Assembly (NCBI RefSeq): GCF_000092245.1
Contig: NC_014166.1
Span: 2,170,001 to 2,234,000 of the forward strand
Reading direction: 5' to 3'
Length of the DNA stretch: 64,000 nt
Source: Arcobacter nitrofigilis DSM 7299
GTDB taxonomy: Bacteria; Campylobacterota; Campylobacteria; Campylobacterales; Arcobacteraceae
Positions 6,130 to 44,905 of this stretch are shown piece after piece (within the stretch, counting starts at the first letter, position 1; the number at the start of each line of letters is the position of its first letter). A program made the position numbers and the translations under genes. The notes beneath the pieces were generated by a model. The model was not told the DNA's origin. It ran no database searches and saw only the letters and a list, made by a program, of their open reading frames with translations.

Positions 6130-7116
6130 ATGTCAATAATTTTACAAAGAAAAGAATATTTAGAAAAAGTTGAAAAAATATATCCTTTAGACACTCCACA
6201 AAAAAAGAGTGCCAACTTTAATAACAAAATTTTTAAAAAAACATCTTTTTATCATTATAGAATGGGATTAGGAATTTCATATTTATTCTTTAATTCTAGT
6301 TTTGAGAAAAACATTACTATGGAATCAAAACATGAAGCTAATGACATTTCATTTATAACATTTAATCAATCTATACACCCTATAAAACTGCAAGATTTTA
6401 GTAAAAAGAATGACTACATCTTCAAACCTAAACATTACACAATAGGAAAAATAAATGAAAACTTTCAATCTTATAATACCTATTCAAGTAATAAAGAATA
6501 TTGTACACATTATATTTTTTTTGAAAATAAAATATTTCAAGATTTGTTAAAAGAAGATTTAACTCAAAAGTCATTGTATGAAGTAGATGGCTTTAAAATC
6601 ATGGAAGAGATGATAACCAATGAAAAACAAAAATTAATTTTAAATGAATTGCCAACATTATTCTCCCTTGAAGGCAAACTCCAAGAGTTATATTTAGAAT
6701 CAAAAATTATAGATTTAATTTATATAACATTAAATGATATAAAAAATTTATCTTTAAAAGAGAGTTTTGAACTCAATTCAAAAGATATTGAATGCTTGTA
6801 TAAAGCAAAAGAAATTTTAACAAAAAATATTTCAAATCCTCCATCTTTAAAAATGTTAGCACATCAATCTGCAATCAATGAATTTAAACTTAAAAAAGGA
6901 TTTAAGAAACTTTTTGGCAATACTGTTTTTGGATTTTTACAAGAATATAGACTAAATGAAGCTAAAAAGATACTTCTAAATAATGAAATAAATATTAATG
7001 AAGTTTCTTCATTGGTTGGATATAAAAATGTTAGTCATTTTAGTAAAATATTTAAAGAATATTTTGGTGTAAACCCCATACAAATTAAAAAAAACCAGAA
7101 AAAAGTTTATATTTAA
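6130..7116 (+). CDS. AraC-family regulator of the metallophore island (YbtA/PchR-like role)
   Basis: The 328-aa protein has a poorly conserved N-terminal region (about 1-220) and a C-terminal AraC-type DNA-binding domain (about 225-325), including the second-helix signature region around VGYKNVSHFSKIFKEYFGV. In yersiniabactin and pyochelin loci, AraC-type proteins (YbtA, PchR) activate biosynthesis and receptor genes when bound to the ferric siderophore. This gene's size, layout and position just upstream of the synthase operon suggest the same role. The inferred ligand is the product of this cluster. A Fur-like palindrome lies in its own promoter. The nearest start is ATG 6130 with AAAGG upstream. 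Function is inferred from context; only the family assignment is direct. Confidence 0.82.
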   Translation: MSIILQRKEYLEKVEKIYPLDTPQKKSANFNNKIFKKTSFYHYRMGLGISYLFFNSSFEKNITMESKHEANDISFITFNQSIHPIKLQDFSKKNDYIFKPKHYTIGKINENFQSYNTYSSNKEYCTHYIFFENKIFQDLLKEDLTQKSLYEVDGFKIMEEMITNEKQKLILNELPTLFSLEGKLQELYLESKIIDLIYITLNDIKNLSLKESFELNSKDIECLYKAKEILTKNISNPPSLKMLAHQSAINEFKLKKGFKKLFGNTVFGFLQEYRLNEAKKILLNNEININEVSSLVGYKNVSHFSKIFKEYFGVNPIQIKKNQKKVYI

Positions 7117-7452
7117 TATTTACTTTTTCAAGTTCTTATTAATAAAATAATTAAGTTTCTTTTAATAGTTTAAAATATAATTATCGGCCTTAAACTTTGC
7201 AGTAAAATTCCAAATTAAATTAAACTATTTTAATTCATTTATAGTTGCACATTTAATTAAGTTTTCTTATTCTTTATAGTGATTATTAAAGCTTTATCTT
7301 TTATATCTTTCTTTTAGGGTTAACTGTGTGAATTTTTTCCTAAATATTTTCCTATTTTGTGGTAAAAAAGGATATCAAATATTTTGTTAATCCTTCCCAT
7401 CCCTTATTTCTAGAAATTATGCATTTATGATTTGATTGGGGAAACCATTCTT

Positions 7453-7484
7453 TATTTGAATAATATATGAATTCATTTCAAATA
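7453..7484. promoter_or_regulatory. Inverted repeat, candidate AraC-type activator site
   Basis: TATTTGAA (7453-7460) and TTCAAATA (7477-7484) form a perfect 8-bp inverted repeat with 16 bases between them. A second palindrome, ATGAATTCAT, lies inside at 7467-7476. The repeat ends about 35 bases before the predicted -35 element, where AraC-type activators of siderophore operons commonly bind. The regulator assignment is inference; I found no second copy upstream of the receptor gene. Confidence 0.35.
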
Positions 7485-7515
7485 CAATAAATTAAAATCC
7501 TCTCAACATAAAAAT

Positions 7516-7549
7516 AATATTGATAATCATTATAATATTTATATATAAT
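7516..7549 (+). promoter_or_regulatory. Predicted Fur-repressed sigma-70 promoter of the biosynthetic operon
   Basis: Bases 7516-7534 match the 19-base Fur consensus at 16 positions, the best match in the window. TTGATA (7520-7525) and TATAAT (7544-7549) are spaced by 18 bases and make a good -35/-10 pair. The Fur site covers the -35 element and the start of the spacer, the classic arrangement for iron repression. A second TATAAT at 7531-7536 is an alternative -10. Transcription would start near 7556, leaving a leader of about 145 bases. Confidence 0.6.
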
Positions 7550-7699
7550 ATCAAAAGAAATAACAAAGAATAGTAAAAAAAACCAAAAATAATCTATTCT
7601 CAATAAAAGAAAAAATCTCAAAAAGTTACCAATTTATTTTAATTTTTTGGATTTAATAATTTTATTTCTAACAATAATATAATTTTGGGAGTAATAAAG

Positions 7700-9793
7700 A
7701 TGAAAAACTTAGGACAAGTATTAGAATATTATGCTTTAAAATATCCAGAAAAAGTAGCTATACGTTTTTTAGCAAGAGGAGAAGATGAAACAGACTCTAT
7801 AACTTATTTACAATTAAAACAACAATCTCATGCAATAGCAACTCAATTGTTAACCCAGTATAAAAGAGGAGATACCGCCCTACTTATTTTTGATGCAAGT
7901 ATTGATGTAGTTGTCACATTTTGGGGATGTGTTTATGCTGGAATTATTGCAGTCCCAATTCCTATTCCAAATGGAAATAAAGGAATGGATAATGTAGCAC
8001 ATATAGTAGAAGATGCAGAAATTAGTTTAATTATTAGTCATACTTCGGTTGAAAGTCGTTTAAGTAAGAAATTTAAAGAAAATATCCAATTGAAAAGACT
8101 AGATTGGCTGATTGTTAATAAGAAAAATTTTAAAGAAAATATATTTTTAGATAAGGATGTTTTTTCATCTAATCAATTATTATTATTACAATACACTTCA
8201 GGTTCTACAAATAAACCTAAAGGAGTAAAAGTATCTCATCAAAATATGATAGCACACCAAGAAGGATTAAAAGAAGCATTTTATAGTGATGAAAATTCTG
8301 TTGTGGTTAGTTGGTTACCATATTACCATGATATGGGATTAATTGGGAAAATAATACATGCAACTTTTTGTGGTGCAACCCTTATTTTAATGCCACCAAT
8401 TGCATTTGTACAAAATCCATTTCGTTGGTTACAAGCAATTAGTAAATATCAGGGAACTAATAGTGCTGCTCCAAATTTTGCCTATGAGGATTGTTTACGA
8501 AATATAACAAATGAACAATTAAGCCAATTAAATCTAAGTTCTTGGAAAGTTGCATGGAATGCTGCTGAACCAATACATGCAAATACAGTTGTAAATTTTT
8601 GCAATAGGTTTTCACAATGTGGATTTAATCCTCAATCATTGACAACAGCTTATGGAATGGCTGAATCTACCTTAGCAATTTCAGTTGCGGATATAAAATC
8701 AAAACTAAAACTATTAGCAATAGATGAAAATGAATTTAAACAAGGAAATATCAAAGTTATTAAAGAACTCTTTATTGATAGCAACCTAGAAGAAATCTCC
8801 CAATATAAAAAAGTAGTAGTAGATTGTGGAAATTGTATTTCAAACCATCAAATAAAAATAGTAGATCCAAAAAACAGATTGTTATGCTCCGATTATAAAA
8901 TTGGAGAAGTATGGTTTAGTGGCAAAAGTGTAGCAAATGGATATTGGAAAAAAGAAACATTAAGCCAAAGTACTTTTTTCGCAACTATTCAAAATAATAA
9001 TAATTCTGAAACTTATTTACGTACAGAAGATATGGGTTTTATGGACAAAAACAAAAATCTTTTTATAGTGGGACGGCATAAAGATATGATAATCATTCAT
9101 GGAGAAAATTATGCACCTCAAGATTTAGAGTTTAGTATTTTTAACTCTCATGAAGCTTTTGTAGAAAGTGGTTGTTCTGCATTTTCAGTAATGTCTCAGG
9201 GGAAAGAGAAAGTAGTTATAGTCCAAGAAATTAAACGTACACAAAGAAAAAAAGTTGATTTTGAAAAATTATTATCACATGTTAAAAATATACTTTCACA
9301 AGAGTATCAATTACAGTTATTTGCTTTAGTTTTCATCCATCAAGCAAACCTTCCTAAAACCACAAGTGGAAAAGTCCAACGTAAATTATGTAAGCACTTA
9401 TTTATTAATGAAGAGTTTTCTCCTTTATATTCTTGGGTTCCACAACAATTAGATGAACAGCAACTATTAAATGAAAAAGTATCTGAACAAAATCTTCACA
9501 TTGAATCTTCATCAAATCAATTGTCTTATGAGAAACTAATACATTGGTTAGAAGAATGGATTCAAAAAACTATCCCTGCAATAGAAAGTTTTGAGAAATC
9601 TAGTAACTTTTCTAGTTATGGTATGGATTCAAAAACTACTGCACTAATGGCTTATGATTTAGAAAGTTATATTGGATATGAGCTTGATCCAACATTATGT
9701 TGGAACTACCCAAATCCTGATACTTTAATAAATCATCTTATAGATGAAATAAAAACTAATCAACTTATCCCTTTAAAAGGTAATCTAAAATGA
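7700..9793 (+). CDS. Fatty-acyl-AMP ligase fused to acyl carrier protein (starter-loading module)
   Basis: The adenylation domain (about 1-590) has the P-loop-like motif YTSGSTNKPKGVKVSH and the GMAESTLAIS segment typical of fatty-acyl-AMP ligases (FAAL), which activate free fatty acids as acyl adenylates for carrier proteins rather than CoA. The C-terminal carrier domain carries YGMDS with the phosphopantetheine serine at about 644. It should therefore load a fatty acid onto its own carrier and pass it to the ketosynthase of the next protein. I chose ATG 7700, 697 aa, because GGGAG lies about eight bases upstream; an in-frame TTG at 7685 would add five residues. The stop overlaps the next start codon (ATGA at 9790), indicating translational coupling. 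Chain length of the substrate is unknown. Confidence 0.9.
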   Translation: MKNLGQVLEYYALKYPEKVAIRFLARGEDETDSITYLQLKQQSHAIATQLLTQYKRGDTALLIFDASIDVVVTFWGCVYAGIIAVPIPIPNGNKGMDNVAHIVEDAEISLIISHTSVESRLSKKFKENIQLKRLDWLIVNKKNFKENIFLDKDVFSSNQLLLLQYTSGSTNKPKGVKVSHQNMIAHQEGLKEAFYSDENSVVVSWLPYYHDMGLIGKIIHATFCGATLILMPPIAFVQNPFRWLQAISKYQGTNSAAPNFAYEDCLRNITNEQLSQLNLSSWKVAWNAAEPIHANTVVNFCNRFSQCGFNPQSLTTAYGMAESTLAISVADIKSKLKLLAIDENEFKQGNIKVIKELFIDSNLEEISQYKKVVVDCGNCISNHQIKIVDPKNRLLCSDYKIGEVWFSGKSVANGYWKKETLSQSTFFATIQNNNNSETYLRTEDMGFMDKNKNLFIVGRHKDMIIIHGENYAPQDLEFSIFNSHEAFVESGCSAFSVMSQGKEKVVIVQEIKRTQRKKVDFEKLLSHVKNILSQEYQLQLFALVFIHQANLPKTTSGKVQRKLCKHLFINEEFSPLYSWVPQQLDEQQLLNEKVSEQNLHIESSSNQLSYEKLIHWLEEWIQKTIPAIESFEKSSNFSSYGMDSKTTALMAYDLESYIGYELDPTLCWNYPNPDTLINHLIDEIKTNQLIPLKGNLK

Positions 9794-12700
9794 ATAAAAC
9801 ATATGAACCTATTGCTATTATAGGAACCTCTTGTCGTTTACCAGGAGAAATTAATGATTTAAATGATCTTTGGCATAAATTAAGTGCTTCTTATGATGCA
9901 GTTGTTGATATTCCAAGTGAACGTTGTTTACAAGATAATATTTATAATAACACACCACAAGTTGGTAAAAGTTATGCAAAAAAAGCTGGATTACTTAATA
10001 ATATAGCTAACTTTGATGCAAAATTTTTTGGTATTTCAGATGAAGAAGCTACTGCAATGGATCCACAACAGAGACTATTACTTGAAGCAGCTTGGCATGC
10101 ATTAGAAGATTCAGGTCAATTTAAAAATGACGATTTATTAAAGGAAACAGGATTCTATGTAGGTATTGCTACAGACGATTATAGCCAAATAGGAATACAT
10201 AAGCACAAATTAGATGAAGTTAGTACATATACTACATTAGGATCATTAAGATCAATTAGTGCAGGTCGAGTAGCATATCATCTTAATCTAAATGGTCCTG
10301 TTAGTCAAATAGACACTGCTTGTTCTTCTTCACTCATGGCAATTCATCAAGCGTGCCAAAGTTTACGTTTAAATGAGGCAGATTGTATGTTGGCTGGTGG
10401 AATCAACTTATTAATATCCCCTCAAACTATGGTTGAACTAAGTCAAATAAAAGCATTATCCTTAAGTAACCGTTGTAGTGTTTTTGATAATAGTGCAGAT
10501 GGCTATGTAAGAGGAGAAGGTTATGGATTAGTTGTATTAAAAAGATTAAGTGATGCAGAAGCAAACAACGACAATATTATTGCTGTAATCAAAGGCTCTT
10601 TAACTAACCATGATGGATCAAGTAATGGATTAACTGCACCAAATGGTTTAGCACAAGAAAAACTTCTTAAAAAAACTCTTAAAATTTCAAATATTAATTC
10701 ACATGAAGTTAGCTATGTTGAAACTCATGGGACAGGAACACTATTTGGTGACCCCATAGAAGTAAACAGTATTATTAATGTATATGGGAAAAATAGAAAT
10801 AAAGATAATCCACTATTTTTAGGTTCAATTAAAAGTAGTATTGGACATTTAGAAGCAGCAGCTGGTGTTGCAGGAATACTGAAAGTTTGCTCTTCAATAA
10901 CAAATAAGCAATTAATTCCAAATTTAAATTTTTCAACACCTAATCCTTATATTAATTGGGACAAGGCTCCTATTAAAGTTATTGATACTTTAAAACCTTG
11001 GTCTAACAAGGATAAAGAACTAAGAACTGCTACTATGAGTTCATTTGGCTTTAGTGGAACAAATGTACATATGATTATTCAAGAGTATCAAAATAATAAA
11101 GAAGATTTAACAGCAAATAAATTAACAAATGAACTTTATATAATACCAATATCAGCAAAAAGCTTAACTTCATTAAAAAATTTAGTAAAGGCATGGTTAG
11201 AGGCAGATTATTTAACAAAGGAATCTATTGCTAATATAGCATATAGTGCTACTGTTACTAGAAAACATTTTGAATATAAACTACTAGTTCTAGTAAAAAA
11301 CTATGAAGATTTAAAACTTAAGTTAAAATCTTGGTTCCATAATAAAGAAACAGATTTATTATGGAGCAGTATTAATTTTAAACCACTTACTGATAAGTGC
11401 AATATTAATAAAAACTACATTGATATTATAAATAACTACTTTACAAATAATCATATTGATTGTGAAGATTTATATGGTAAGAATAAAATTTCCCATTGTA
11501 AGCTACCTAGTTATACCTTTGATAGTAAAATCTACTGGTGGGAAAAACCATATGATTTTACCATAAGAACTTCTGATAAATTAATAGAAAATAAAAATAT
11601 ATCATATAAATTACAATGGGAAGAATATAGCATAAATGAAAGCATATCAACTAATCATAATATACAAATAATTGCAGATAGTACAAATAACAATATAATT
11701 AAACTATTAGAAAAAAGTTCTGAAGAATCAAATTATATAAGTCAAAGTACAAATGAATTTTTAAATACACCTGTTAATAAAGATACAAATTATATTTATT
11801 TTATTCATATAAGTGAAGACATAGATATACTTGAAAATAACATAGCTAAGATATGGTCTATAGTACAATATTTTAATAAAAATAATAACTCATCTAAAAT
11901 ATGGATTATTACAGAGCAATCACAACATTTTGAAAAAGATGATATTACCAATATAAATGCCTCTTCAATTTGGGGATTATTTCGCTCATTAAGAATAGAA
12001 CTAGGAACTAGTTGGGGTGGAATAATTGATATGCCTCAAAATATAACAAAAGATATTATAAATAAGATGTTTATGTGCTTTTATCAGCAAAACGATGAAG
12101 ATCAATATGTACTTCGGGATAAAAAAGTATATATACCTAGATTATTACCACATACATTAGATACACAAAATGTTTTCTCTTTTGATTTAAAAGCCTCATA
12201 TCTTATTACGGGTGGGTTAGGCGCTTTAGGAATAGAATTAATAACTTACTTAATTTCTTTAGGAATTAATCATATTATTCTAGCTTCAAGAAGAGGAGAA
12301 GATACCTTAAAAAATAAGAAAGATTTTGCTAATAAAATTAAAGAATGGAGAAGACAAGGAAAACAAATTGATATTTATAAATTAGACCTTAGTAATGAAC
12401 TTCAAGTATCAGATTTTTTTGAAAATCTGAAAAAAGAAAGTATTAATTTAAAAGGGATAGCCCACCTTTCTGGTGTTATTAGCAAACAAGATTTAAGTAA
12501 AAGTCCAAAAGAAAAAGATATTCATAATTTTATGGCTGCAAAAACTAAAGGGGCTTGGTATTTACATAAATATTCACAAGTATTTCATTTAGATTTCTTT
12601 TTATTATTCTCTTCAGTTACAGCCCTATTTGGGATGAAAGATTTAGCTTTTTATAGTGCAAGTAATGCTTTTTTAGACGCTTTAGCTTTACATCGAAGTA

Positions 12701-15700
12701 AACAAGGATTAAAAGCACTATCAATAAACTGGGGAAGATTTGATATAGATGGTATGGTTGATAATCAAGATGCTAAAGTATTAGATACATTAGGTGTTGC
12801 TAAAATGAAAACAACAAATACTTTTACAAAAATGACTCATTATATGCAATATACCAATAATATTTGTATAACAGATGTAAATTGGGACAAATTTACATCT
12901 TATTTTAAACAATTATCTAGCATTAATTTATTTACTCATTTATTACCTAAGTCAAATCATCTAATAAGTACTCAAAAAATTGAAACAAAAGAACACTTTA
13001 AGAAATATTTTATTGATATTATTAGGAAAGCACTAAAACTAGAAAAAAATAAAATATCAACAACACAAAACTTATTCTCAATAGGTCTTAACTCTATGCT
13101 TTCAATGTATATTAGACAAGCACTTGAAGAGAATTTGAAACTAACAACAGAAGCCACATTATTTTTTAAAAAACAAACTATAGAGCTATTGGTTGAATAT
13201 TTATGGGAACAATACCAAAACAATAACAATAATAAAATGATTAATACTCAATTAAATAATGAAGATGGGAAAATTATATTTTTATTTAGTGGTCAAGGTA
13301 CCCAATATCCAGGAATGGGAAAAACACTTTATACTAATAATGAAAAGTTTAAACAATCAATTGATTATTGTATAAATTTTTTACAAAAAGAATTTGACTT
13401 AGATTTTAAATATATTTTATTTGATGATAAATCTAAGTTATTAAAAGAAACAAAATATGCTCAATTATCCTTATTTATTATTGAATATTCATTATATAAA
13501 TTATGGCAAGAAAAAAATATTCATGCTGATTATTTTATAGGGCATAGTGTAGGAGAATATGTTGCAGCTTGCCTTGCTGGAGTATTTAGCCTTGAAGATG
13601 CATTAAGATTGCTAAAAGTTCGGGGAAAACTTATGCAAAGCTTAGAAAACCATGGTGATATGATGGTAGTTTTTGATTCATTTGAAAACATACCTACTCT
13701 TCCGAATTCTTTAGATATAGCTGCTATAAATAGCCCTTGGCAAACTGTTATATCTGGGAATATAAATCATCTTAAAAATTATGAAAAAAAATTATCAGAA
13801 AAGAATATAAAAACACAATTATTAAATACACAAAAAGCCTTCCACTCAAGTTTAATGATGCCTATACTAAAAGAGTTCCAAAAATTTGCAAGTACAATTA
13901 CTTATAAAAGTCCCAATATACCAATTATTACTAATATTAATGCTACTGTGGCTAAAGAAGATATTGCTTGTGCAAAATATTGGGTAGATCATATTATAAA
14001 TACTGTCCAATTTGCGCCAAGTATTCAAAAAGCTTATGAAAAAGGTTGTAGATACTTCATTGAAGTTGGGCCTGGTAGTGTTCTTAAAAATTTAGCAGAA
14101 GAAAACATAATACAAAAAAATATCAACTGTCATTATTTTAATTCATTGATTAATGAAGATAAGCCTAAAGAATATTTACTAAAACAACAAGAAAAATTAA
14201 AATTATCTCAAAAAAGTTTAATTAATCATAAAGATGATTCCATAAAAGAAAATTTATTAAGACCAATTATACATAATGAACAAGATAAATTTAAACCTTT
14301 TGCTTTAACTTCTATGCAACATGCTTATTGGTTAGGAAGAAATGAGGAAATTGCAGAAGGTGGTGTTGCTATCCACATGTATTTAGAACTTGATATAAAA
14401 TATTTTAATAAAGAAAATTTTACAAATGCATGGAAAACACTTGTTGAAAGACATGATATGTTACATGCTATAGTTGATAGAAATGGAGAGCAACAAATAT
14501 TAAAACAAATTCCTGAATTTTCTATTCTAGAGCACTCTTTAAAAAATAAAGATGAAAATGAAAAAGAAATATATTTAGAAGATATACGACATGAGTTATC
14601 TCATCAAAATGTATCTCTTGAAAAATGGCCTCAATCTGAAATAAGAATAACTAAACTTGATGATAATAATTCAAGGGTACATATTAGTATTGATGGATGG
14701 ACTATTGATGGGTGGAGTTATCAAGTTTTATTCCACGAATTACATGAACTATACCATAATCCAAAATTAACACTACCTACAATCAATATTAGCTTTAGAG
14801 ATTATGTTTTGCAATTAAAAGAGATAGAAAATAGTGCCTTTTATCAAAAACACTTGACAAAATGGAGAGAACGATTAAAAGTATTACCCAAAGCTCCCCA
14901 ATTACCTATGAATAAGAATAAAACTAATACTAATCGTTTTAAACGTTGGGAGTATTTTATAAATAAAGAACAATATGCATCATTAAAAAAATATGCTAGT
15001 GATAAGTCCTTAACAACAGTAACCACCCTACTTTCAGCTTATGCTTGGGTTCTTAGTCGCTATAGTAAAGAACAAGATATTACACTTAATATACCACGAT
15101 TTAATCGTTTACCATTACACTCTGATATTAATCGTGTTATAGGAGAATTTGCTAGTTTTACTTTACTTGCTTGTACAAGAAAAGAAGATACAACATTTAA
15201 TGAATATGCTAATAAAATACAAAAACAACTATGGGAAGATGTGGAAAACCCTTGGGTTCCCGGAGTTACTTTATTAAGGGAATTAGCAAAAATTTCTAAT
15301 CAATCAAATACAATGATGCCTTTTGTTTTTACAAATATGCCAGAAGAGAGTCTTGATGGGAAAAAATTAGAATTTTTAAATGAATGGAGCAAAAGTGCAG
15401 ATATTCCATACTTCTTAACTCAAACACCTCAAGTACAAGTTGATTGTCAATACCATGATAAAGATGATGGACTATTTGTATTTTGGGATGTTTTAATAGA
15501 TAAATTCGAACCTGAAATAATTGATAATTTATTCTCTAGTTATATTGATTTAATACAAAACTTATCATCTTCTGACAAAGCGTGGAATCAAAACTCTTTA
15601 CCTATGAAAAAAAGTTCATCTCTTATTGCAAATGAAGAACAAATACCAAAACAAGGCCTATATGAACAATTTACAAATACTGCACAAAAAAATAAAAAAA

Positions 15701-35315: not shown

Positions 35316-36059
35316 ATGGATTCAATAACAAAAAACAAATGGATACAATACGAAGAAAAAGAAAATGTTAAATTACGTCTATTTTGCTTGCCATATGCAG
35401 GAGGAGGATCATCTATTTATCGGCTTTGGCAAAAATCAATGCCAGAGCATATACAAGTATGCAAAATTCAACTACCAGGTAGAGAAAATCGTATAGATGA
35501 GCAAGCAATAGATTCTATGGAAGACTTAGTAAAAACCCTAGCAAAGCAACTCTTTAATTATTTAGATAAACCATTTGCTCTCTTTGGTCATAGTATGGGA
35601 GCAATGGCTACATATGAACTTGCTAAATATTTATCAAATAATACCCCTTATAGTCCTAAGCATGTATTTGTATCTGGATGCAGAACACCTAATACTCCTC
35701 ATAACCATATAACATATCACCTAGAAGGTGAAGAGTTTATTGATTCGCTAAGACAAAGGGGAGGAACAAATGAAGTGCTATTAAATAATAAAGACTATAT
35801 GAAAATGGTCGAACCGACATTGCGTGCTGACTTAAAACTTATTGAAAGATGGCATCACAATGACATAGAAACCCTTAATTGCCCATTAACAGTATTAGGG
35901 GGAGTAAATGATACCTTAGTTTTACCAACTAACTTAAAACAATGGCATCAGTATACAAACAAAATATTTGAATTAAAATTATTTGAAGGTGACCACTTTT
36001 TTATAAATGATGATTCACATAATATTGCTTCAATAGTGGCAAATACATTAAAACAATAA
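35316..36059 (+). CDS. Type II (editing) thioesterase, YbtT-like
   Basis: The 247-aa alpha/beta hydrolase has FCLPYAGGG near the N-terminus, the nucleophile motif GHSMG with Ser93, and GDHFFIND with the catalytic His near the C-terminus. This is the standard type II thioesterase pattern (GrsT, YbtT, PchC). Such enzymes remove wrong or stalled acyl groups from carrier proteins in PKS/NRPS lines. It starts only 6 bp after the terminal synthase, so it belongs to the same operon. It probably clears mis-primed carriers among the many carrier domains here. Confidence 0.93.
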   Translation: MDSITKNKWIQYEEKENVKLRLFCLPYAGGGSSIYRLWQKSMPEHIQVCKIQLPGRENRIDEQAIDSMEDLVKTLAKQLFNYLDKPFALFGHSMGAMATYELAKYLSNNTPYSPKHVFVSGCRTPNTPHNHITYHLEGEEFIDSLRQRGGTNEVLLNNKDYMKMVEPTLRADLKLIERWHHNDIETLNCPLTVLGGVNDTLVLPTNLKQWHQYTNKIFELKLFEGDHFFINDDSHNIASIVANTLKQ

Positions 36060-36086
36060 AATAAATTATAAAGAAAGGATAGAAGA

Positions 36087-37448
36087 ATGTCAGAAACAAA
36101 AAAAATAATAGAAATGATTGAAAATGATAATACAACGCAAAAAGATTATGAAAATATAAAATTACCCAGTTCAATGAATGCTTTAGTAACCTTAAAAGAA
36201 GAAGAGAATATTTTTGGGGAAATGGAAACTGAAGATAAAGATATTTCAAAAACATTACATTACAAAGAAGTAACTATTCCTGAAGTTGGAGATGATGAAG
36301 TATTAATTGCTGTTATGGCTTCTGGAGTTAATCATAACACAGTATGGTCTGCAACTTTTGAGCCATTGCCAACTTTTAATTTTTTATCCCACTATGCTAA
36401 ATCAAATCCAAAAAATAAAAAACATAACTTAACTTATCATATATTAGGAAGTGATGCAGCAGGAGTTATTGTAAAACTTGGAACTAAAGTTCATGATAAT
36501 TGGAAATTAGGAGACAGAGTTGTTATTTGCCCAGCAGTTACTTCTAATACAAACCCTCAGTCTTATAAAGATTCGATGTCAGATCCAAACACAAAAGCTT
36601 GGGGATATGAAACAAATTTTGGTGGATTAGCAGAATTTTGTTTAGTTAAATCTACCCAACTAATGAAAAAACCAGAACACTTAACTTGGGAAGAAGCAGC
36701 CTCTTTATCTCTTGTTTCAAGTACAGCATATAGAATGTTAGTTTCTCAACATGGTGCAGAAATGAAACAAGGAGATAATGTCCTAGTTTGGGGAGGTGCA
36801 GGTGGAATGGGTGCAATGGGTATTCAATATGTACTAAATGGTGGAGGAAGACCTATTGCAGTTGTTTCTAGTGAAAAAAAAGCAGAACTAGTAAAAAAAC
36901 TAGGTTGTGAATATGTAGTAAATAGAGCAAAGAAAAATTTTAATTTCTTTAAAGAAGATGGAAGTATTAATAAAAGGCATCTTATTGCATTTAAAAGTAC
37001 AGTTGAACGCTTAATAGATAAAGAATCTGCTGATATTGTTTTTGAACATACAGGTAGAGAGACTTTTGGAGCAAGCGTTTTTGTTGCTAAAAGTGGAGGG
37101 AAAATTGTCACGTGCGGTTCTACTACAGGTTATGAGCATACATTTGATAATCGTTATTTATGGATGTATGTAAAATCTATCATAGGTTCACATGGAGCTA
37201 ATATCTATGAAGCCTATAATGCTAATAGATTATCATGCTTAGGAAAAATAAACCCTATATTATCAGAAGTGTATACCCTTGAAAACTCTATTGAAGGTTG
37301 CATAAAAGTTAAAAACAATCAACATATTGGGAAAGTTGGTATTTTATGCTTATCTCCCAAAGAAGGATTAGGTATCAAAGACCATGAATTACGTCAAAAA
37401 GTAGGTGAAGATAAAATTAATATCTTTAGAAACTTAAAAAATAAGTAA
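36087..37448 (+). CDS. Crotonyl-CoA carboxylase/reductase-like enzyme (alkylmalonyl-CoA supply)
   Basis: The 453-aa medium-chain reductase has the CCR length and hallmarks: NHNTVW near 82, WGYET near 172 and GGAGGMGAMG (236 onward). Tyr174-Glu175 and His369 line up with the Phe-Glu and His that, as I recall, hold CO2 in characterized CCRs. CCRs reductively carboxylate a 2-enoyl-CoA with NADPH to an alkylmalonyl-CoA, for example crotonyl-CoA to ethylmalonyl-CoA. The residue after His369 is Gly370 (SHGAN) where crotonyl-type enzymes commonly have Phe (SHFAN). As I recall, a Gly here is found in the octenoyl-CoA enzyme CinF and widens the pocket. It is the last gene of the operon, 27 bp after the thioesterase, with an AAAGGA ribosome site, and likely feeds the AT with the RAGH motif. 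Confidence 0.88.
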   Translation: MSETKKIIEMIENDNTTQKDYENIKLPSSMNALVTLKEEENIFGEMETEDKDISKTLHYKEVTIPEVGDDEVLIAVMASGVNHNTVWSATFEPLPTFNFLSHYAKSNPKNKKHNLTYHILGSDAAGVIVKLGTKVHDNWKLGDRVVICPAVTSNTNPQSYKDSMSDPNTKAWGYETNFGGLAEFCLVKSTQLMKKPEHLTWEEAASLSLVSSTAYRMLVSQHGAEMKQGDNVLVWGGAGGMGAMGIQYVLNGGGRPIAVVSSEKKAELVKKLGCEYVVNRAKKNFNFFKEDGSINKRHLIAFKSTVERLIDKESADIVFEHTGRETFGASVFVAKSGGKIVTCGSTTGYEHTFDNRYLWMYVKSIIGSHGANIYEAYNANRLSCLGKINPILSEVYTLENSIEGCIKVKNNQHIGKVGILCLSPKEGLGIKDHELRQKVGEDKINIFRNLKNK

Positions 37449-37450
37449 AT

Positions 37451-38155
37451 TTATTTATATAAATTATAAGCATCAAAATATGACATAGTTACATTAGGAC
37501 TTTGAATACACATAGCTCCTAAGTACTGTGTTGATATATTTAAAGGATACAAAAACCATTCTTTTATTTGAAAATTATCAATAGGTATTTCTTTAGTATT
37601 TTGAGGAATAACATGAAAACTATCAAGGGGAATACTAAGTCCTAAGCCCAATGCTTTAATATAAGCTTCTTTTCTCACCCAACAGTAAATAAAAGCCTCT
37701 TTTTGCTTCTCTAGGGCTAGGTTTTTTATCCAAAGTCTTTCTCTTTTTGTAAAATATCTTGTTGAAATATCTATGATATTGCTATCACAATTCATATTTT
37801 CCAAATCAATTCCAATCTCATTATTTCTTGAAAATGTGATTATAGACATATCTGTACTATGACTTATATTAAAATAAAGGTTGCTTCCTTTTATATATAT
37901 CTTGCCATAATTATTTTTATATAAAGTAATTGAATATGAATCATTATCAAGGTAATACTTAAGTAGTATTTTTAGCGTTATCCTTGTAGTAATGTATGCT
38001 TTTTTTTTATTGCTAATTCGATATTTATTAGCACGATTTAATTCATCGGGAGTTAATAATTCACTATATTTATAAATATCTTCAGATATTTTATCTATTT
38101 CTATTTTCCAAATATGTACATTATTATTAAATAAAGGAACCATAAGGTTTTCCAT
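37451..38155 (-). CDS. 4'-Phosphopantetheinyl transferase, Sfp type
   Basis: The 234-aa protein carries both Sfp-type motifs: GIDLE with Asp117 and Glu119 binding magnesium, and WVRKEAYIKA with Glu163 and Lys167. Sfp-type enzymes attach the phosphopantetheine arm to carrier domains. This cluster needs it for the six carrier domains of the FAAL and the four synthases. It converges on the CCR gene with only two bases between the stop codons, so there is no room for a separate terminator. Broad-range Sfp enzymes are commonly linked to siderophore NRPS loci, as EntD is. Confidence 0.93.
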   Translation of the reverse strand: MENLMVPLFNNNVHIWKIEIDKISEDIYKYSELLTPDELNRANKYRISNKKKAYITTRITLKILLKYYLDNDSYSITLYKNNYGKIYIKGSNLYFNISHSTDMSIITFSRNNEIGIDLENMNCDSNIIDISTRYFTKRERLWIKNLALEKQKEAFIYCWVRKEAYIKALGLGLSIPLDSFHVIPQNTKEIPIDNFQIKEWFLYPLNISTQYLGAMCIQSPNVTMSYFDAYNLYK

Positions 38156-38255: not shown

Positions 38256-38285
38256 AAAAATAGAAGTATTCCTACTTCTATTTTT
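38256..38285 (-). terminator. Rho-independent terminator of the TonB receptor gene
   Basis: A perfect 13-bp stem (38256-38268 with 38273-38285) encloses the tetraloop TTCC. Read on the minus strand it is followed by a T-rich tract. The right arm touches the receptor's stop codon. Confidence 0.8.
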
Positions 38286-40369
38286 TAAAATCTATATCTA
38301 GCACCTATCCCAAAAAACCTTGGGTCACCAAATGTTGCCATTGTAAATAAACTATTTGCTTCATAAGTATTAATATATTTTTCATCTGTTAAATTTTTAC
38401 CATATACATAAATATCCCAATCAGAAAATTTATATCCTACTTTAACATCAACTAAAGTATAACCATCTTCTTTAGGAAAAGTTTTATGGGCATCATCATA
38501 AAATGACATTGAACCTTGATTTCTCACATCTGTACGGGCATAAAATCCATTGGGATGATAATAAGCTACACTTAAATTTGCTGTATGACTAGGTGTAGTT
38601 TCTATTTCTTTACCACTAAAATCATTATCTCCAGCAACATAAGAATCATATTTTGTTTTTATAAAACCAAGTGCCCCACTTACTTCTATCCTATCTGTAG
38701 GAAAATATCTAAAGTCAAATTCGATACCTTCTGAATGTGCTTTATCAGCATTGTCGGTATAATAATTAGTTGTGGCACCAACCGTTTCTTGTCTATTAAT
38801 ATGAATATCTTTTATATCCATTCTAAATATTGCAGCAGTAAACATAAAATCACCTACTGACCCTTTAATACCTATTTCATAATTTGTAGATCTTTCTGGT
38901 TCAAATCTATTATCCTCTTTTTTAGAATTTCTAGCTAATACATTAAATCCTCCTGGCATATAACCTTTAGAAACAGATACATAAGGAGAAAAATTTTCAT
39001 TTATTTTATAATCTAAAGCAACTTTGGGAATAAATACATTCCAACTTCTTTTATCATTATATTCATTATTTTTAGTAGTATTTGAAAAGCCATTCAAGTC
39101 AATTTCTCTTTTGATTTTCTGATACCTACCACCAAGAGTTAATTTCAATTGTTTATTTAAAGGAATCATTGCTTGCCCAAAAATAGCTTGAGTAGTACTA
39201 TCAATAGAAGAAACAGTATTAGTCTTTCCAAAGTTAACACCATTCATTATTGTTTCACTTCCATAAGCATCTTTATTCTTTTCTTCTTTATCTAAATATA
39301 ATCCAGTAACCCAACGAATACCATCATTTTCTTTATTAGACAATCTTATTTCTTGAGAATATGTATCTGAAGAAGCATCATTAAATAAATAAGAACCATC
39401 AAGAGTAGTTCCATTTGTAAAATCAGCATCATAATTACCTTTTAAATTAGTCTTTCTATGTACAGTCACAGCATCAAATATATAGTTATCACTTTCATAT
39501 TTAATATCAATACTTTGAGAATCAATGGAATTTTTTTCAAGCATTGGTTCTTCAAAACTAGTATTTTCAGCATTCTTTCTTTTAAATTCATATAAATTGG
39601 TACTTCCTACTATTCCATAACCTTTAAATCCATAGTTTTTAATTTTTTCTTTTTTTAATACTAATTTTGTTGAAAGTTTATCTGTTGCTTTATAATATAA
39701 AGATGTTCCAAAACTCTTATCATCTTCTTTTGCTGCTTTTTTATCACCTTTATATTTATTATTAATCCATCCATCTGTTGATGTTATCTCACCATTAAGA
39801 TTGAAGAAAAGTTTATTATCAATTATTGGTGTATTTACATTAAAGGTTGTTCTTTTATAATTATTACTACCATACTCAACCCCTATATTCCCACTTGTAT
39901 AATTAGTAGGTTCTTTTGTTATGATATTTATAACACCACCTATGGCATCTTTCCCATAAAGTGTTCCTTGTGGGCCCCTTAAAACTTCTATTCTCTCAAC
40001 ATTTTCTAAAGAAGTATTAAAAGCACGCTTGGATGAAGTAGGAATTCCATCAACATAAACTACAATAGGATTATTTTCAGTAAATAAAGAAGCGTTTAAG
40101 CCTCTAAAGTTCACCTTAACTCCACGGTCAGGTATAGATGCCATATTTGGTATTTCATTTATCACATCTACAATCGTTTTAATACCTCTTTCTTCTAGCA
40201 CTTCTCCACTTATGACAGTAATACTTTGAGGAACATCTTGAATATTCTCTTCAACCTTATTTGCTGTTACAGTAATATTATCCATCTCTTGTGCAGAATC
40301 TTTACCATAAAGCGTAGTTGATGTTGATAAAGATATTACAGATAGTATTATCAATTCTCTAATTTTCAT
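38285..40369 (-). CDS. TonB-dependent outer-membrane receptor for ferric metallophore
   Basis: The 694-aa protein has a signal peptide (about 1-22), a TonB-box-like DNITVTA near 30, a plug domain (about 40-155, with VPQSITVISGEVLEERG and RGPQGTLYGKDAIGG) and a 22-strand-type barrel ending in an aromatic RYRF C-terminus. Size and plug motifs match siderophore receptors such as FyuA, but I cannot assign the ligand from sequence. Its place at the edge of the biosynthetic genes, with a Fur-like box in its promoter and GGAGG before the start, makes uptake of the cluster's own ferric product the likely role. No inner-membrane ABC importer for the complex is in the window. Confidence 0.92.
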   Translation of the reverse strand: MKIRELIILSVISLSTSTTLYGKDSAQEMDNITVTANKVEENIQDVPQSITVISGEVLEERGIKTIVDVINEIPNMASIPDRGVKVNFRGLNASLFTENNPIVVYVDGIPTSSKRAFNTSLENVERIEVLRGPQGTLYGKDAIGGVINIITKEPTNYTSGNIGVEYGSNNYKRTTFNVNTPIIDNKLFFNLNGEITSTDGWINNKYKGDKKAAKEDDKSFGTSLYYKATDKLSTKLVLKKEKIKNYGFKGYGIVGSTNLYEFKRKNAENTSFEEPMLEKNSIDSQSIDIKYESDNYIFDAVTVHRKTNLKGNYDADFTNGTTLDGSYLFNDASSDTYSQEIRLSNKENDGIRWVTGLYLDKEEKNKDAYGSETIMNGVNFGKTNTVSSIDSTTQAIFGQAMIPLNKQLKLTLGGRYQKIKREIDLNGFSNTTKNNEYNDKRSWNVFIPKVALDYKINENFSPYVSVSKGYMPGGFNVLARNSKKEDNRFEPERSTNYEIGIKGSVGDFMFTAAIFRMDIKDIHINRQETVGATTNYYTDNADKAHSEGIEFDFRYFPTDRIEVSGALGFIKTKYDSYVAGDNDFSGKEIETTPSHTANLSVAYYHPNGFYARTDVRNQGSMSFYDDAHKTFPKEDGYTLVDVKVGYKFSDWDIYVYGKNLTDEKYINTYEANSLFTMATFGDPRFFGIGARYRF

Positions 40370-40400
40370 TTTTCCTCCAATTTAATTAAATATTGGTCTA

Positions 40401-40433
40401 ATTATATTGTAAACAAAACTAATAATCATTATT
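40401..40433 (-). promoter_or_regulatory. Predicted Fur-controlled promoter of the TonB receptor
   Basis: On the minus strand TATAAT (40401-40406) is a good -10 element. A Fur-like site at 40415-40433, with core AATAATCATTATT, matches the 19-base consensus at 14 positions and overlaps the expected -35 region 17 bases upstream. A strong GGAGG ribosome site follows at 40375-40379. Confidence 0.55.
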
Positions 40434-40595
40434 AAAAATGGAATTGAAAGGATTTTTTATACCGCTAAGAGTATTTTATAAGTAAGCAAATATCTTATCA
40501 AATAAATCAAGAATAAATTACTTTTTAGTAAATTTAACATTCCATATAAAATATAATACTTTTATAATCAGATAAAATCCCTTTAGAACAAGAAA

Positions 40596-40614
40596 ATTAT
40601 TGATAATAATTCTC
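40596..40614 (+). promoter_or_regulatory. Fur-box-like site upstream of the LolA-barrel-MMPL operon
   Basis: The site contains an exact GATAAT hexamer and matches the Fur consensus at 14 of 19 positions by hand count. It lies 52 bp before the start codon at 40667. A TATTAT at 40641-40646 or TAAAAT at 40634-40639 could be the -10. The 297-bp divergent region it shares with the receptor holds no gene. Confidence 0.5.
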
Positions 40615-40666
40615 ATTTAGTGTAGCATTCATCTAAAATATATTATCTTATTAATGGAGCCATACA

Positions 40667-41431
40667 ATGATTAAAAAAATAACAATAGTATCTCTTTTTA
40701 TTTCACAAGTCTTTGCCCTCACCCCTTTTGAAATAGCAATAAATGTTAAAAAAAATTCAGATGGATATGGGAGCTCAAAAAGTGTATTAGAGATGATTTT
40801 ATTGGATCAAGCTAAAAACAAATCAAAAAGAATAATGGAATCAATCTCTTTTGAAAATAAAAATCATTATGGCATAAATGGAGATAAATCATTAATGGAA
40901 TTTAAAACACCATTAGATGTAAAAGGTACAAAATTCTTAACCCATGAAAAAATAAATAAAAATAACAACCAATGGTTATATCTACCTGTACTAAAACGTA
41001 TAAAACGTATAACTAGTAAAAATAAAAGTGGTTCTTTTATGGGAAGTGAATTTTCTTATGAAGATATATCTTCAAGGGAACCTTCAAAATATACTTATTC
41101 TACTAGCACAGAAGATACTAAGATAGGCAATATAGACGTTTATAAATATGAAAGATACCCTAAAGATAAAAATTCAGGATATTCAAAACAAATACTTTTT
41201 GTGGATAAGACTAAATTTGTAATTTTAAAAGTAGAGTTTTTTGATAAGAAAAATGAACTTCTCAAAACTGCAAAATATACTTATAGAAAAATAAAAAATA
41301 TATATAGAGTTGCCAAAATACAAATGAATAATCATCAAAATTTAAAATCTACTACCTTAACTTATGTAAAAGATGACATCAAATTAAATCTAGATGAAAA
41401 GCTTTTTTCAAAAAGATACTTAAAAGACTAA
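40667..41431 (+). CDS. LolA-like outer-membrane lipoprotein-sorting family protein
   Basis: The 254-aa protein has a signal peptide (about 1-17) and the family pattern LPVLKRIKRI...KSGSFMGSEFSYEDIS around residues 105-140, typical of periplasmic proteins with a LolA-like fold (outer membrane lipoprotein-sorting protein family). These carry hydrophobic ligands and are often encoded with MMPL-type transporters. It is the first gene of a three-gene operon and starts behind a Fur-like box. It may shuttle a lipid-like substrate between the MMPL pump and the outer membrane. Here the inferred substrate is the lipid-started metallophore, or a lipid altered during iron limitation. Confidence 0.82.
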   Translation: MIKKITIVSLFISQVFALTPFEIAINVKKNSDGYGSSKSVLEMILLDQAKNKSKRIMESISFENKNHYGINGDKSLMEFKTPLDVKGTKFLTHEKINKNNNQWLYLPVLKRIKRITSKNKSGSFMGSEFSYEDISSREPSKYTYSTSTEDTKIGNIDVYKYERYPKDKNSGYSKQILFVDKTKFVILKVEFFDKKNELLKTAKYTYRKIKNIYRVAKIQMNNHQNLKSTTLTYVKDDIKLNLDEKLFSKRYLKD

Positions 41432-41434
41432 TTT

Positions 41435-42586
41435 TTGAAAAAAATATTATTTAGTTCTTTACTTCTAGTAAATATTGTCCTAGCTAAAAATGAGATAAAA
41501 AGTTATATTGGATATGAGTATAAATCTTATTTAAAAACAAAAGGTGATACTAGAAATTATAACAGTGCCATTACCTTTCAAAATGAGTTTAAATACTCTT
41601 TTGAAGACTCATATTTATATTCAAAAATAAATATTTTAAAAGATAGCAGTGAAGGACAAAGAGATTATGTCAATATATCAGAGCTTTATTACTCTAAAGC
41701 ATTTGAAAATTTTGATTTAAATTTAGGTAAAAAAATTATATTTTTAGGAAGTTTAGAAGCTAATAATATAGTAAATATATTTAATCGTCAAAATTATCAA
41801 AAAGATTCTTTAAGCATTTATAAAAAAGGTTCAATTATGGCAAACCTGAACTATTTTTTTAATGATGATTCTACTTTAAAACTATATGTAAAAAGTTTTG
41901 AAGAAAACATAAAACTACCAAGTACAAACTCCCCTTATAGCCCTTTTAAAACAAATATATACTCAAAAAAAATAAATTTTTCAAATAAAAGAGAACAACC
42001 ATCTTTCTTAGCTGTATATTCAAAAAGTTATGATGATGAAATAATCGCAGATATAAATATGGGCTTTTTTTACGGCTATGATGAGAATATACTCTATCAA
42101 AAAACAAATAATAAAATAAACCCTTATCTTTTCCAAAGTGCAAAACTTTTTACATATGATACTTTTGTACTAAACTCCACACTTTATAAGATTGAAGCTA
42201 GTTATACAAAAGTAGAAAAAGATGGAGAATTTGATATAAAAAATTTTTATGAAATTGGTATTGGTAGCGAATATACTATAGAACAAATTTATAAAAATAA
42301 TAGCTTAGGATTAATAGCTGAATATTATAAAAGTGATAACAAAAATACAAGCTTTGATAATGATCTATTTTTAGCACTAAGATATTCATTAAATGACAAA
42401 GATTCCAGTGAATTTTTAACAGGAATTATAAAAGATACAAAAAAAAGTGATATGAGTGCATATATAAAATATAGTGGAAGATTAATTGATAATTTAAATG
42501 TATCAGCAGATATAAGATATCTAAAAAGTGACAACTATATTGGTGAGCATTTACGCTTTGGTTGTGAAATAAAGTACTACTTTTAA
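41435..42586 (+). CDS. Putative outer-membrane beta-barrel protein
   Basis: I do not recognise a named family. The 383-aa protein starts with TTG, three bases after the previous stop. The choice is supported by the signal peptide it gives (KKILFSSLLLVNIVLA) and the absence of a nearby ATG. The mature part is full of alternating hydrophobic and aromatic strands (for example IGYEYKSYLK, YSKINILK, LRFGCEIKYYF) and ends in Phe, as outer-membrane barrels do. Between a LolA-like protein and an MMPL pump, it may form the outer-membrane part of the same export route. The function is inferred from context only. Confidence 0.7.
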   Translation: MKKILFSSLLLVNIVLAKNEIKSYIGYEYKSYLKTKGDTRNYNSAITFQNEFKYSFEDSYLYSKINILKDSSEGQRDYVNISELYYSKAFENFDLNLGKKIIFLGSLEANNIVNIFNRQNYQKDSLSIYKKGSIMANLNYFFNDDSTLKLYVKSFEENIKLPSTNSPYSPFKTNIYSKKINFSNKREQPSFLAVYSKSYDDEIIADINMGFFYGYDENILYQKTNNKINPYLFQSAKLFTYDTFVLNSTLYKIEASYTKVEKDGEFDIKNFYEIGIGSEYTIEQIYKNNSLGLIAEYYKSDNKNTSFDNDLFLALRYSLNDKDSSEFLTGIIKDTKKSDMSAYIKYSGRLIDNLNVSADIRYLKSDNYIGEHLRFGCEIKYYF

Positions 42587-42607
42587 TAAAATAGGAGATA
42601 AATAAAA

Positions 42608-44905
42608 ATGAATAAAAAAGAAAAACTTGCACATAATATTATAAAATATAGATGGTCAATAGCTATTTTGATTCCTATTCTTATAATAATTATTTTTGCG
42701 TTAAATATACATAAAGCAGGAGTTGAAACAGATTGGAAAATATGGTTTGATAAAGATTCAAAAGTTATGAAAAACTTTACACACTTTAAAGAAACTTTTG
42801 GTTCAGATGATAGAATTATGATAGTATTAAGTGATAAAAATAGTATCTTTAAAAAAGATATATTAAAAAACATAAAAACTATTACAGAGAGTTTATGGCA
42901 GACAAAACTTATAGCAAGAGTTGATTCTATTACAAACTATCAATACTCTCATGTAAGTAAAGAAGATGAAGATGAGATAATTGTTGAAGACTTCATTGAT
43001 AATATTGATTCTCTAACAAAAAAAGATTTAGAAGAAAAAAAAGAAATAGCAATAAGCGATCCACAAACAAAAAACTTATTAATCTCAGCTGATGGAAAAT
43101 CTGCAATCATAATCGCAAGAATAGTTTACAAAGAAAATATAAAAGCAAATGATTATATAACTTTATATAATGCTTCAAAAAAACTTATTGAAGAAAATAA
43201 AATCAAAGGTGTTGAATACCATATAGTAGGTGTACCGGCTTTTACAGATGCTTTTATCAATGCCATTAAATCAAATTTTATAATGTTTATGCCACTTTTA
43301 TTTATTTGTATTGTCGTTCTACTTGCATTGATTTTTAGAAATATTTGGGCTGTAGTTTTACCCCTAACTATAGTTATTTTAACTATTCTTTTTATTGCTG
43401 GATTCTCTTTTGGTTTAGGATATAAACTAAATACACTAACTTCTATGTTTCCTATTTTTGTTATAGCTATAGGAATAGCTGACTCCATACATATTTTTTG
43501 GGTTTGGATACATAAAAGAAAAGAAGGTTTAAACAATGAAGAAAGTATAGTCTTTTCTATAAATAAAAACTTTACTCCTGCCTTAATCACCTCTCTTACA
43601 ACTTTTGTAGGATTTTTGTCACTAGGAGTAAGTAAAATAATTCCACTTCAAGCCTTCGGTATAGTTGTAGCTTCAGGAGCTATTATTGCATTTATATTAA
43701 GTATTTTATTTTTACCTGCCATGTTAAGCATACTAAACCCTAAGATAAAAGAACAAAAACAAAAAGTTTATAAAACACATGAACGAATAAAATCATATAC
43801 TAATTTTGTAGTAAAAAATGATAAAGCTATCATAATATCGTGTCTTATAGTTATTAGTATTTGTTTTATAGGACTAAAAGACACTACTATTGATACAGAT
43901 TTTCTAAAACAATTTTCTAAAACAACAGATATAAGAAAAAGTACTGATTTTGTGGAAAAAAATATAGGTGGAACTATCTCTATGGAAATTATAATAGATA
44001 GTAAAAAAGCTTCAGGTATAAATAAACCTGACTTTATGAAAGATGTCGAAAAATTCAAAATTGAATTTAAAAATCACTTTTCAAAAGTAAGACATATAAA
44101 TTCTATAACTGATGTAGTAAAAAAATACAATCAACTTATGAATGGAAATAAAAAAGAATTTTATAAAATACCTGATTCTAAAGAACTAATTTCCCAATAT
44201 TTACTTTTATATTCATTATCTCTTCCACAAGGAATGGGAATAAATGATATGATGGATACAAAAAACAGATACTTAAGACTAACCTCTATGAACAACCTTG
44301 CAAGTGAACAAGAAAAACTCAAAATGTATAGATGGACTGAAGACTGGTGGAAACAAAACAGTAAATATTCTGCAACCCTAGAAGGATTGACTTTAGTTAC
44401 AGCACATATGAAAATTGAGCTTACAAATACTATGATTAAATCCGTATTACTTGCACTTTTATTCGTAACCTTGATTTTTTGGTTTACATTTAAATCAAAA
44501 TTCTATATGTTAATCTCCGCCGTTCCAAATATAGCTCCACTTCTCATAGCAATGGGTATAACTGGATGGATAGGCATAAATATGGATTTAGGTATGGCTA
44601 TAGTTTTTGTAATCATTATAGGAATTGCTATTGATGATACTGTTCATTTTCTCTCAAAATATAAAGATGCCATATCAAAAGGATATACAACCCGTGATGC
44701 CATAGAAAAAGCCTTACTTTTGAGCGGAAGTGCTATAGTGATTACTACGGTTATATTAGTTACTGCATTGGGAATATTTTTATTAAGCGATTTCACTATT
44801 TATTCAAATTTTGGATTTGTAAGTAGTATTGCATTATTTTGTGCAATGATTTTGGATTTACTCCTACTTCCAGCAAGCTTAAGTTATATGAGTAAAATAA
44901 AATAA
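42608..44905 (+). CDS. MMPL/RND-superfamily exporter
   Basis: The 765-aa membrane protein has the two-fold MMPL layout: a helix near 15-35, a large periplasmic loop, a bundle of helices (about 210-375), a second loop, and a final bundle (about 600-760). The final bundle includes the conserved GIAIDDTVHFLSKY segment with the paired Asp residues expected for proton use. Relatives move lipids, hopanoids or lipopeptides; mycobacterial MmpL4 and MmpL5 export siderophores. It follows the barrel gene by 21 bp and shares the Fur-like promoter at 40596. Export of the cluster product is the most economical reading, but a lipid-transport role independent of the cluster is possible. Confidence 0.85.
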   Translation: MNKKEKLAHNIIKYRWSIAILIPILIIIIFALNIHKAGVETDWKIWFDKDSKVMKNFTHFKETFGSDDRIMIVLSDKNSIFKKDILKNIKTITESLWQTKLIARVDSITNYQYSHVSKEDEDEIIVEDFIDNIDSLTKKDLEEKKEIAISDPQTKNLLISADGKSAIIIARIVYKENIKANDYITLYNASKKLIEENKIKGVEYHIVGVPAFTDAFINAIKSNFIMFMPLLFICIVVLLALIFRNIWAVVLPLTIVILTILFIAGFSFGLGYKLNTLTSMFPIFVIAIGIADSIHIFWVWIHKRKEGLNNEESIVFSINKNFTPALITSLTTFVGFLSLGVSKIIPLQAFGIVVASGAIIAFILSILFLPAMLSILNPKIKEQKQKVYKTHERIKSYTNFVVKNDKAIIISCLIVISICFIGLKDTTIDTDFLKQFSKTTDIRKSTDFVEKNIGGTISMEIIIDSKKASGINKPDFMKDVEKFKIEFKNHFSKVRHINSITDVVKKYNQLMNGNKKEFYKIPDSKELISQYLLLYSLSLPQGMGINDMMDTKNRYLRLTSMNNLASEQEKLKMYRWTEDWWKQNSKYSATLEGLTLVTAHMKIELTNTMIKSVLLALLFVTLIFWFTFKSKFYMLISAVPNIAPLLIAMGITGWIGINMDLGMAIVFVIIIGIAIDDTVHFLSKYKDAISKGYTTRDAIEKALLLSGSAIVITTVILVTALGIFLLSDFTIYSNFGFVSSIALFCAMILDLLLLPASLSYMSKIK

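Follow-up and report, generated by a model that had tools for sequence, protein, structure and literature searches.

A 64-kb window of the complete Arcobacter nitrofigilis DSM 7299 genome (3,192,235 bp; window at positions 2170001–2234000) carries a 39-kb island of genes that probably direct the synthesis and transport of a metallophore. The host (Campylobacterota) is a nitrogen-fixing bacterium from the roots of the salt-marsh plant Spartina (PMC3035288), and its genome contains a nifH homolog. In comparison with two congeners, referred to here as G001 and G002 (A. nitrofigilis being G000), the island (window positions 5962–44958) is an insertion that is present in A. nitrofigilis and G001 and absent from G002, where the sequences matching 1469–5961 and 44959–47307 lie about 0.6 kb apart and the intervening 39 kb are missing. 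A. nitrofigilis and G001 are mostly 97–100% identical across the island and 87–95% identical in its flanks (92–95% on the left, 87–93% in gltX and approximately 90–92% in the regions beyond), and the edges of high identity fall just 5' of the promoter of an AraC-family gene and just 3' of the stop codon of an MMPL transporter gene. This profile, together with the empty site in G002, argues that the whole island, comprising regulator, synthases, crotonyl-CoA carboxylase/reductase (CCR), receptor and transporter, is one unit that has been exchanged recently. A preliminary description, made from the window sequence alone, had proposed 6130–44905 as one functional unit, which agrees well with the extent of the insertion and with an orthologous core found in Veronia pacifica.

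Every island gene is an intact open reading frame where the preliminary description had placed it, and its inventory of regulator, fatty acyl-AMP ligase (FAAL), four polyketide synthase (PKS)/nonribosomal peptide synthetase (NRPS) proteins, thioesterase, CCR, phosphopantetheinyl transferase, TonB receptor and candidate exporter stands. Chance reading frames or an assembly artefact are ruled out by the occurrence of the same island in G001 and by the Veronia ortholog. The plus-strand genes from 7685 to 37448, from the FAAL protein to the CCR, overlap or almost touch and are arranged as a single operon. In the synthases, the motifs of the ketosynthase (KS), acyltransferase (AT), cyclization (Cy), adenylation (A), acyl and peptidyl carrier protein (ACP and PCP), thioesterase (TE) and C-methyltransferase (MT) domains are intact, the sole exception being the catalytic Tyr of the ketoreductase (KR) in the third protein of the operon, p4.

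The first protein, p2 (7685–9793, plus strand), is recognised by the NCBIfam FAAL models and resembles the FAALs of PDB entries 7r7e and 3kxw; it joins a FAAL to an ACP and is predicted to load the starter, which supports the fatty-acid start that had been proposed for the pathway. Its start codon is TTG as listed, with an ATG at 7700 as another possibility. On the basis of Pfam, motifs and its position in a KS tree, p3 (9790–17499, plus strand) is a KS-KR-ACP-AT-Cy-A-PCP protein with a malonyl-like AT motif (KAFH). Its KS is followed by a post-AT linker with no AT, and the AT is displaced behind the ACP; the retention of a normal linker on the KS side makes this an unusual domain transposition in its own right. 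The p3 A-domain code, DLFNIGIVWK, falls midway from the Cys-like to the Thr-like codes, and the amino acid used is uncertain (Cys, or possibly Thr/Ser). Basic tails are found on p3 (QRRKRLL) and p5 (SRRQRLI), each of which precedes a KS protein.

The extension proteins follow in the order in which we propose that they act, p2-p3-p4-p5-p6 being the gene order. From Pfam and motifs, p4 (17518–22191, plus strand) is KS-AT-KR-ACP, with an atypical RAGH motif in its AT and Asn at the catalytic Tyr position of its KR. Since this KR lacks the catalytic Tyr, the p4 product is quite probably left as a ketone. Pfam identifies p5 (22205–25603, plus strand) as Cy-A-PCP with a Cys code (DLYNMSLIWK) and p6 (25593–35309, plus strand) as the terminal KS-AT-MT-KR-ACP-Cy-A-PCP-TE module, with a malonyl-like AT motif (HAFH) and another Cys code (DLYNLSLIWK). 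All three Cy domains of the island have the DxxxxD motif; two are paired with Cys codes and the third, in p3, with the ambiguous one. The preliminary description's product, three azolines joined by C2 units, fits the three Cy modules linked by PKS modules, but three thiazolines are uncertain in view of the p3 A domain. The p4 and p6 KSs fall within the clade of HMWP1 and MicG-like proteins (micacocidin-type terminal; 100/100), which extends azolinyl chains, and this placement fits the proposed module order. Downstream lie a type II (editing) thioesterase (35316–36059, plus strand; PF00975) and the CCR (36087–37448, plus strand), which scores 475 bits against TIGR01751 (cut-off 379) and is predicted to supply an alkylmalonyl-CoA, as CCRs do (PMC6164871). 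Among the CO2-pocket residues defined in PMC10966969 (N81, F170, E171 and H365), the island CCR retains N81, E171 and H365 and has Tyr in place of F170. From the CCR and the atypical p4 AT, an ethyl or other alkyl branch introduced at p4 appears rather probable.

A scan of GTDB species genomes with a Cy-domain alignment gave Veronia pacifica CAIM 1920 (Vibrionaceae) as the best match at 63%, the other loci among the matches listed being at most 48% identical. The Veronia locus (NZ_LYBM01000008.1; L072:1-17556) is collinear for p4-p5-p6, the type II thioesterase and the CCR at 45–64% identity: p4 54% (C-terminal 264 residues), p5 54%, p6 53% over its full length, the thioesterase 45% and the CCR 64%. 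The catalytic residues examined are retained in Veronia, all four CO2-pocket residues of the CCR included, and the p4 KR carries the same Asn (ENTAAN versus ENTSAN). That the two proteins keep this defect while being only approximately 50% identical speaks for the ketone as an intended feature of the product. The AraC gene of the Veronia cluster, whose protein matches that of the island at 35%, lies at the opposite end and is preceded by a Fur box with 13 of 14 matches, a score reached in 0 of 200 shuffles. No TonB receptor or MMPL match was found in the 21 kb of Veronia sequence that the analysis covered. Apart from Veronia, a CCR was encoded at none of the 77 loci compared; in the family, the terminal module was found only in A. 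nitrofigilis and G001 among 104 genomes, in agreement with a FAAL search, and the CCR only in the same two among 60 relatives. To our knowledge, the V. pacifica cluster has not been described or characterised. Metagenome-assembled genomes of Desulfobacterium and Desulfobacula (L087, L122) contain PKS/NRPS lines with several Cy domains that resemble pathways for thiazoline metallophores.

The AraC-family regulator gene of the island (6130–7116, plus strand; Pfam HTH_18) and three other genes or operons of the island have Fur-box-like sites, which we scored as matches out of 14 against TGATAATNATTATCA. These lie 5' of the AraC gene (TAATAATGATTATTA, 6086–6100, 12/14), the biosynthetic operon (TGATAATCATTATAA, 7521–7535, 13/14), the TonB receptor gene (TAATAATCATTATTA, 40420–40434, 12/14) and an operon for LolA-like and MMPL proteins (TGATAATAATTCTCA, 40601–40615, 13/14). 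The two 13/14 sites, at 7521 and 40601, are the only ones in the window (0.03 expected), and both are in island promoters. The three promoter regions, 1.05 kb in all, hold four sites with at least 12 matches, whereas 2000 simulations under a null trained on the intergenic DNA of the window never gave more than two. The 40420 site is identical in G001 despite surroundings that are 82.5% identical, and the 40601 site differs by two changes. The iron regulation put forward without evidence in the preliminary description is therefore borne out as probable, with Fur as the likely regulator. The genome encodes four FUR-family regulators, some of which may be Zur-like.

After the CCR come two minus-strand genes, for an Sfp/HetI-type 4'-phosphopantetheinyl transferase (37451–38155; PF01648) and a TonB-dependent siderophore receptor (38285–40369; TIGR01783 above cut-off). 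That the receptor, the CCR and the transferase belong together, as had been assumed, is upheld by the G002 empty site and the orthologous Veronia core. The segment 38285–40666 is the only diverged part inside the island, the 5' half of the receptor gene and the promoter region being 83–94% identical to G001, which suggests diversifying selection or local recombination at the receptor of the two species. Three plus-strand genes close the island: a LolA-like outer-membrane lipoprotein-sorting protein (40667–41431; PF17131) and a presumed outer-membrane beta-barrel of 383 residues (41435–42586), both possible exporter accessories, and an MMPL/HAE3-family RND transporter (42608–44905; PF03176, TIGR00921), the candidate exporter. 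The 383-residue protein matches no Pfam family and has homologs of 32–40% identity beside MMPL genes in other genomes; its AlphaFold model is strand-rich but of low confidence (pLDDT 35). Several Campylobacterota that lack these synthases also have MMPL homologs (30–43% identity), in some cases next to a LolA-like or outer-membrane protein homolog, and the trio resembles a set for general lipid trafficking that has been recruited here under a Fur-like site. Its dismissal as an unrelated neighbour is ruled out by its position inside the inserted unit, the Fur-like site and the drop in identity after the MMPL stop codon.

How the chain begins bears on the first of the rival explanations. The FAAL-ACP-KS-AT-KR-ACP-Cy-A-PCP set of p2 and p3 equals that of the massiliachelin/micacocidin starter protein, which makes 6-pentylsalicyl from hexanoate (PMC6604713, PMC10291242), and is shared by the three micacocidin-like clusters that we recognised by architecture and compared (Serratia symbiotica, Rhizobium rhizoryzae and Undibacterium). 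The alternative, left unconsidered in the preliminary description, is that p2 and p3 act iteratively, with three malonyl rounds and one ketoreduction, to build a 6-alkylsalicyl head; the siderophore would then be of the alkylphenol-thiazoline type and would carry one further thiazoline, linked through a ketone. With such a phenolate-thiazoline head, strong binding of iron would be accounted for even though there is no salicylate synthase. In our best tree of 35 KS domains, however, the p3 KS, on a long branch, stands beside the KSs of linear, FAAL-started cyanobacterial pathways (97/92), among them one whose cluster has a TonB siderophore receptor gene as its neighbour, and outside the micacocidin-type clade (100/100). 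Joining p3 to that clade was not rejected in AU tests (p = 0.104 for the KS and 0.149 for FAAL and KS combined), but identities are higher to the cyanobacterial FAAL-started proteins (FAAL 35–38%, KS 42–48%) than to the micacocidin-type ones (FAAL 28–33%, KS 41–42%), and the island is without the thiazolinyl reductase, epimerase-like MT and tandem Cy-PCP of those clusters. We regard the alkylsalicyl head as unlikely and prefer, as reasonably likely, a linear (non-aromatic) beta-hydroxyacyl head, for which cyanochelin B offers a precedent. In Leptolyngbya sp. Heron Island J (L099), a siderophore-like cluster that includes a TonB receptor match shows a similar starter design, in which KS-AT-ACP-Cy-A-PCP comes after FAAL-ACP.

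Among characterised systems, the micacocidin and massiliachelin pathways resemble the island in the FAAL-ACP start, the KS-AT-KR-ACP-Cy-A-PCP set, the C-methylating terminal KS module and iron-dependent production, the last being a prediction for the island. They differ in that the starter set of the island, although complete, is split over two proteins with its order altered and the AT displaced, and in that the island has an additional p4/p5 module, a CCR and an A domain of its own in p6. Yersiniabactin biosynthesis shares the terminal KS-AT-MT-KR-ACP-Cy order, the KS clade, an AraC regulator, a TonB receptor and a type II thioesterase. The likeness of p6 to HMWP1 claimed earlier extends to the PKS half and the KS clade only; scanned alongside, HMWP1 continues as ACP-Cy-MT-PCP-TE with no A domain there and a second MT, whereas p6 has an A domain and no second MT. 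Pfam scans of the island genes found no salicylate synthase, aryl carrier or thiazolinyl imine reductase, as had been noted from the sequence; salicylate synthase was not searched for in the rest of the genome. Where yersiniabactin begins from those first two components, the island begins with FAAL-ACP. Cyanochelin B of Leptolyngbya NIES-3755 is a characterised FAAL-started hydroxyacyl-thiazoline siderophore for which chelation by thiazoline nitrogen and acyl hydroxyl has been proposed (PMC12628792). It shares the FAAL-ACP-KS start, but chelates mainly through two beta-hydroxy-aspartates on its peptide and has a single thiazoline. A locus on plasmid 2 of that strain, taken up as the nearest FAAL cluster, turned out to be the cyanochelin B cluster itself. 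The lusichelins of Lusitaniella have several Cys heterocycles, some linked by C2 PKS units, with AraC and TonB genes and metal binding; they differ in their salicyl cap and salicylate synthase and in a thiazole oxidase, and FAAL or CCR is not reported for them. Fatty-acid-started thiazoline siderophores are thus already known in micacocidin, massiliachelin and cyanochelin B, and the start is not without precedent as had been supposed. The island appears to be a variant of the thiazoline PKS/NRPS metallophore kind, for which the evidence is good as to function class and regulation and moderate as to structure.

Our favoured explanation, which we consider likely, is that the island specifies a Cys-thiazoline PKS/NRPS metallophore under iron control, most probably a siderophore. 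Metallophore function as such is very likely, and iron is quite likely to be the main metal; the product structure, the metal and the export and uptake roles we infer from the genes. When iron is short, Fur would leave the promoters and the AraC activator would switch on the operon. The FAAL would activate a fatty acid and load its own ACP; p3 would add one malonyl unit, reduce it to the beta-alcohol and close the first azoline (from Cys, or possibly Thr/Ser); p4 would add the CCR-supplied alkylmalonyl unit and keep the ketone; p5 would form the second thiazoline; and p6 would add a malonyl unit, C-methylate and reduce it, form the third thiazoline and release the free acid. The predicted product is R-CH(OH)-CH2-azoline-CO-CH(R')-thiazoline-CH(OH)-C(CH3)1-2-thiazoline-COOH; to give one illustration, an octanoyl start with an ethyl branch and a gem-dimethyl group would yield C27H43N3O5S3 ([M+H]+ 586.244). 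Its metal ligands would be the thiazoline nitrogens, the oxygen of the beta-keto/enol group, the hydroxyls and the carboxylate, which would take the role that the phenolate has in yersiniabactin. The MMPL/LolA/outer-membrane trio would export it and the TonB receptor would re-import the metal complex.

Several points weigh against this explanation. No inner-membrane importer is recognizable among the island genes, which qualifies the earlier term "self-contained", although the other listed parts are present. Genes for phenolate, catecholate, hydroxamate or hydroxy-carboxylate chelators were not found in the island. The MMPL transporter, being found in Campylobacterota without the synthases, need not be the exporter. 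We infer the p4 AT specificity from its RAGH motif, and likewise that p4 uses what the CCR makes; a RAGH/xAGH motif for ethylmalonyl ATs was sought in PMC6164871 and is not given there. The Veronia locus as covered here begins inside p4 and holds the core genes from there to the CCR, with the AraC gene.

Zinc, copper, or molybdenum for nitrogenase could instead be the main target, with Fur-type control merely coupling the pathway to iron status. Yersiniabactin is described as a zincophore in PMC8636617, and leptochelins and fatuamide A are related thiazoline metallophores that bind Zn or Cu (PMC12210259, PMC11877528). Thiazoline-N/keto-O donors are softer than catechols, the host has nifH, and its FUR-family regulators may, as noted, include Zur-like ones. 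The boxes nevertheless resemble the Fur consensus, the receptor fits a siderophore-receptor family and the island has no separate zinc or copper genes; we consider another main metal distinctly unlikely.

The three Cy domains are the only condensation-type domains in the whole genome, which bears on whether the locus makes a bioactive lipid, such as an antibiotic or the cellulose inhibitor phthoxazolin. Many lipid-thiazolines are cytotoxic. For A. nitrofigilis, a comparative study based on antiSMASH reported an NRPS-T1PKS pathway for phthoxazolin, with a suggested role in its life with plants (PMC10336517). Since the only condensation-type domains of the genome lie in the island, that call must refer to this locus. 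The island parts, which were not set against a phthoxazolin cluster, presumably mismatch that pathway, and the annotation looks wrong. The FAAL, three Cy modules (two Cys-specific), Fur-like sites, siderophore receptor and CCR point instead to a metallophore, and make a bioactive lipid very improbable.

Elsewhere in the window, 1101–4475 encodes NMT1-type and SBP_bac_3 periplasmic binding domains fused to PAS and GGDEF domains, a putative ligand-sensing diguanylate cyclase, and 52768–52950 holds a tandem pair of tRNA-Asn (gtt) genes that is retained in G002.

We tentatively propose, as an idea a little short of an even bet, a metallophore family common to Campylobacterota and Vibrionaceae in which two thiazolines are bridged by an alkyl-branched beta-keto unit that forms the metal site, an enaminone-like N,O chelate. 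This site would arise from the conserved dead KR and the dedicated CCR and replace the phenolate or catecholate of known relatives; in Arcobacter the pathway would be carried on a transferable island together with dedicated genes for regulation, export and uptake. The few papers turned up by a limited literature search described no metallophore assembly line in Campylobacterota. As the island has no salicylate, catechol or hydroxamate genes, it would probably be overlooked by prediction rules that look for chelator genes (PMC12971057). The metallophore reading predicts a directly testable ligand design and explains the probably mistaken phthoxazolin annotation. If it is true, V. pacifica would be a second producer for comparison, and Campylobacterota would possess an assembly line dedicated to metallophore synthesis, borne by a nitrogen fixer that lives on roots and has a high metal demand.

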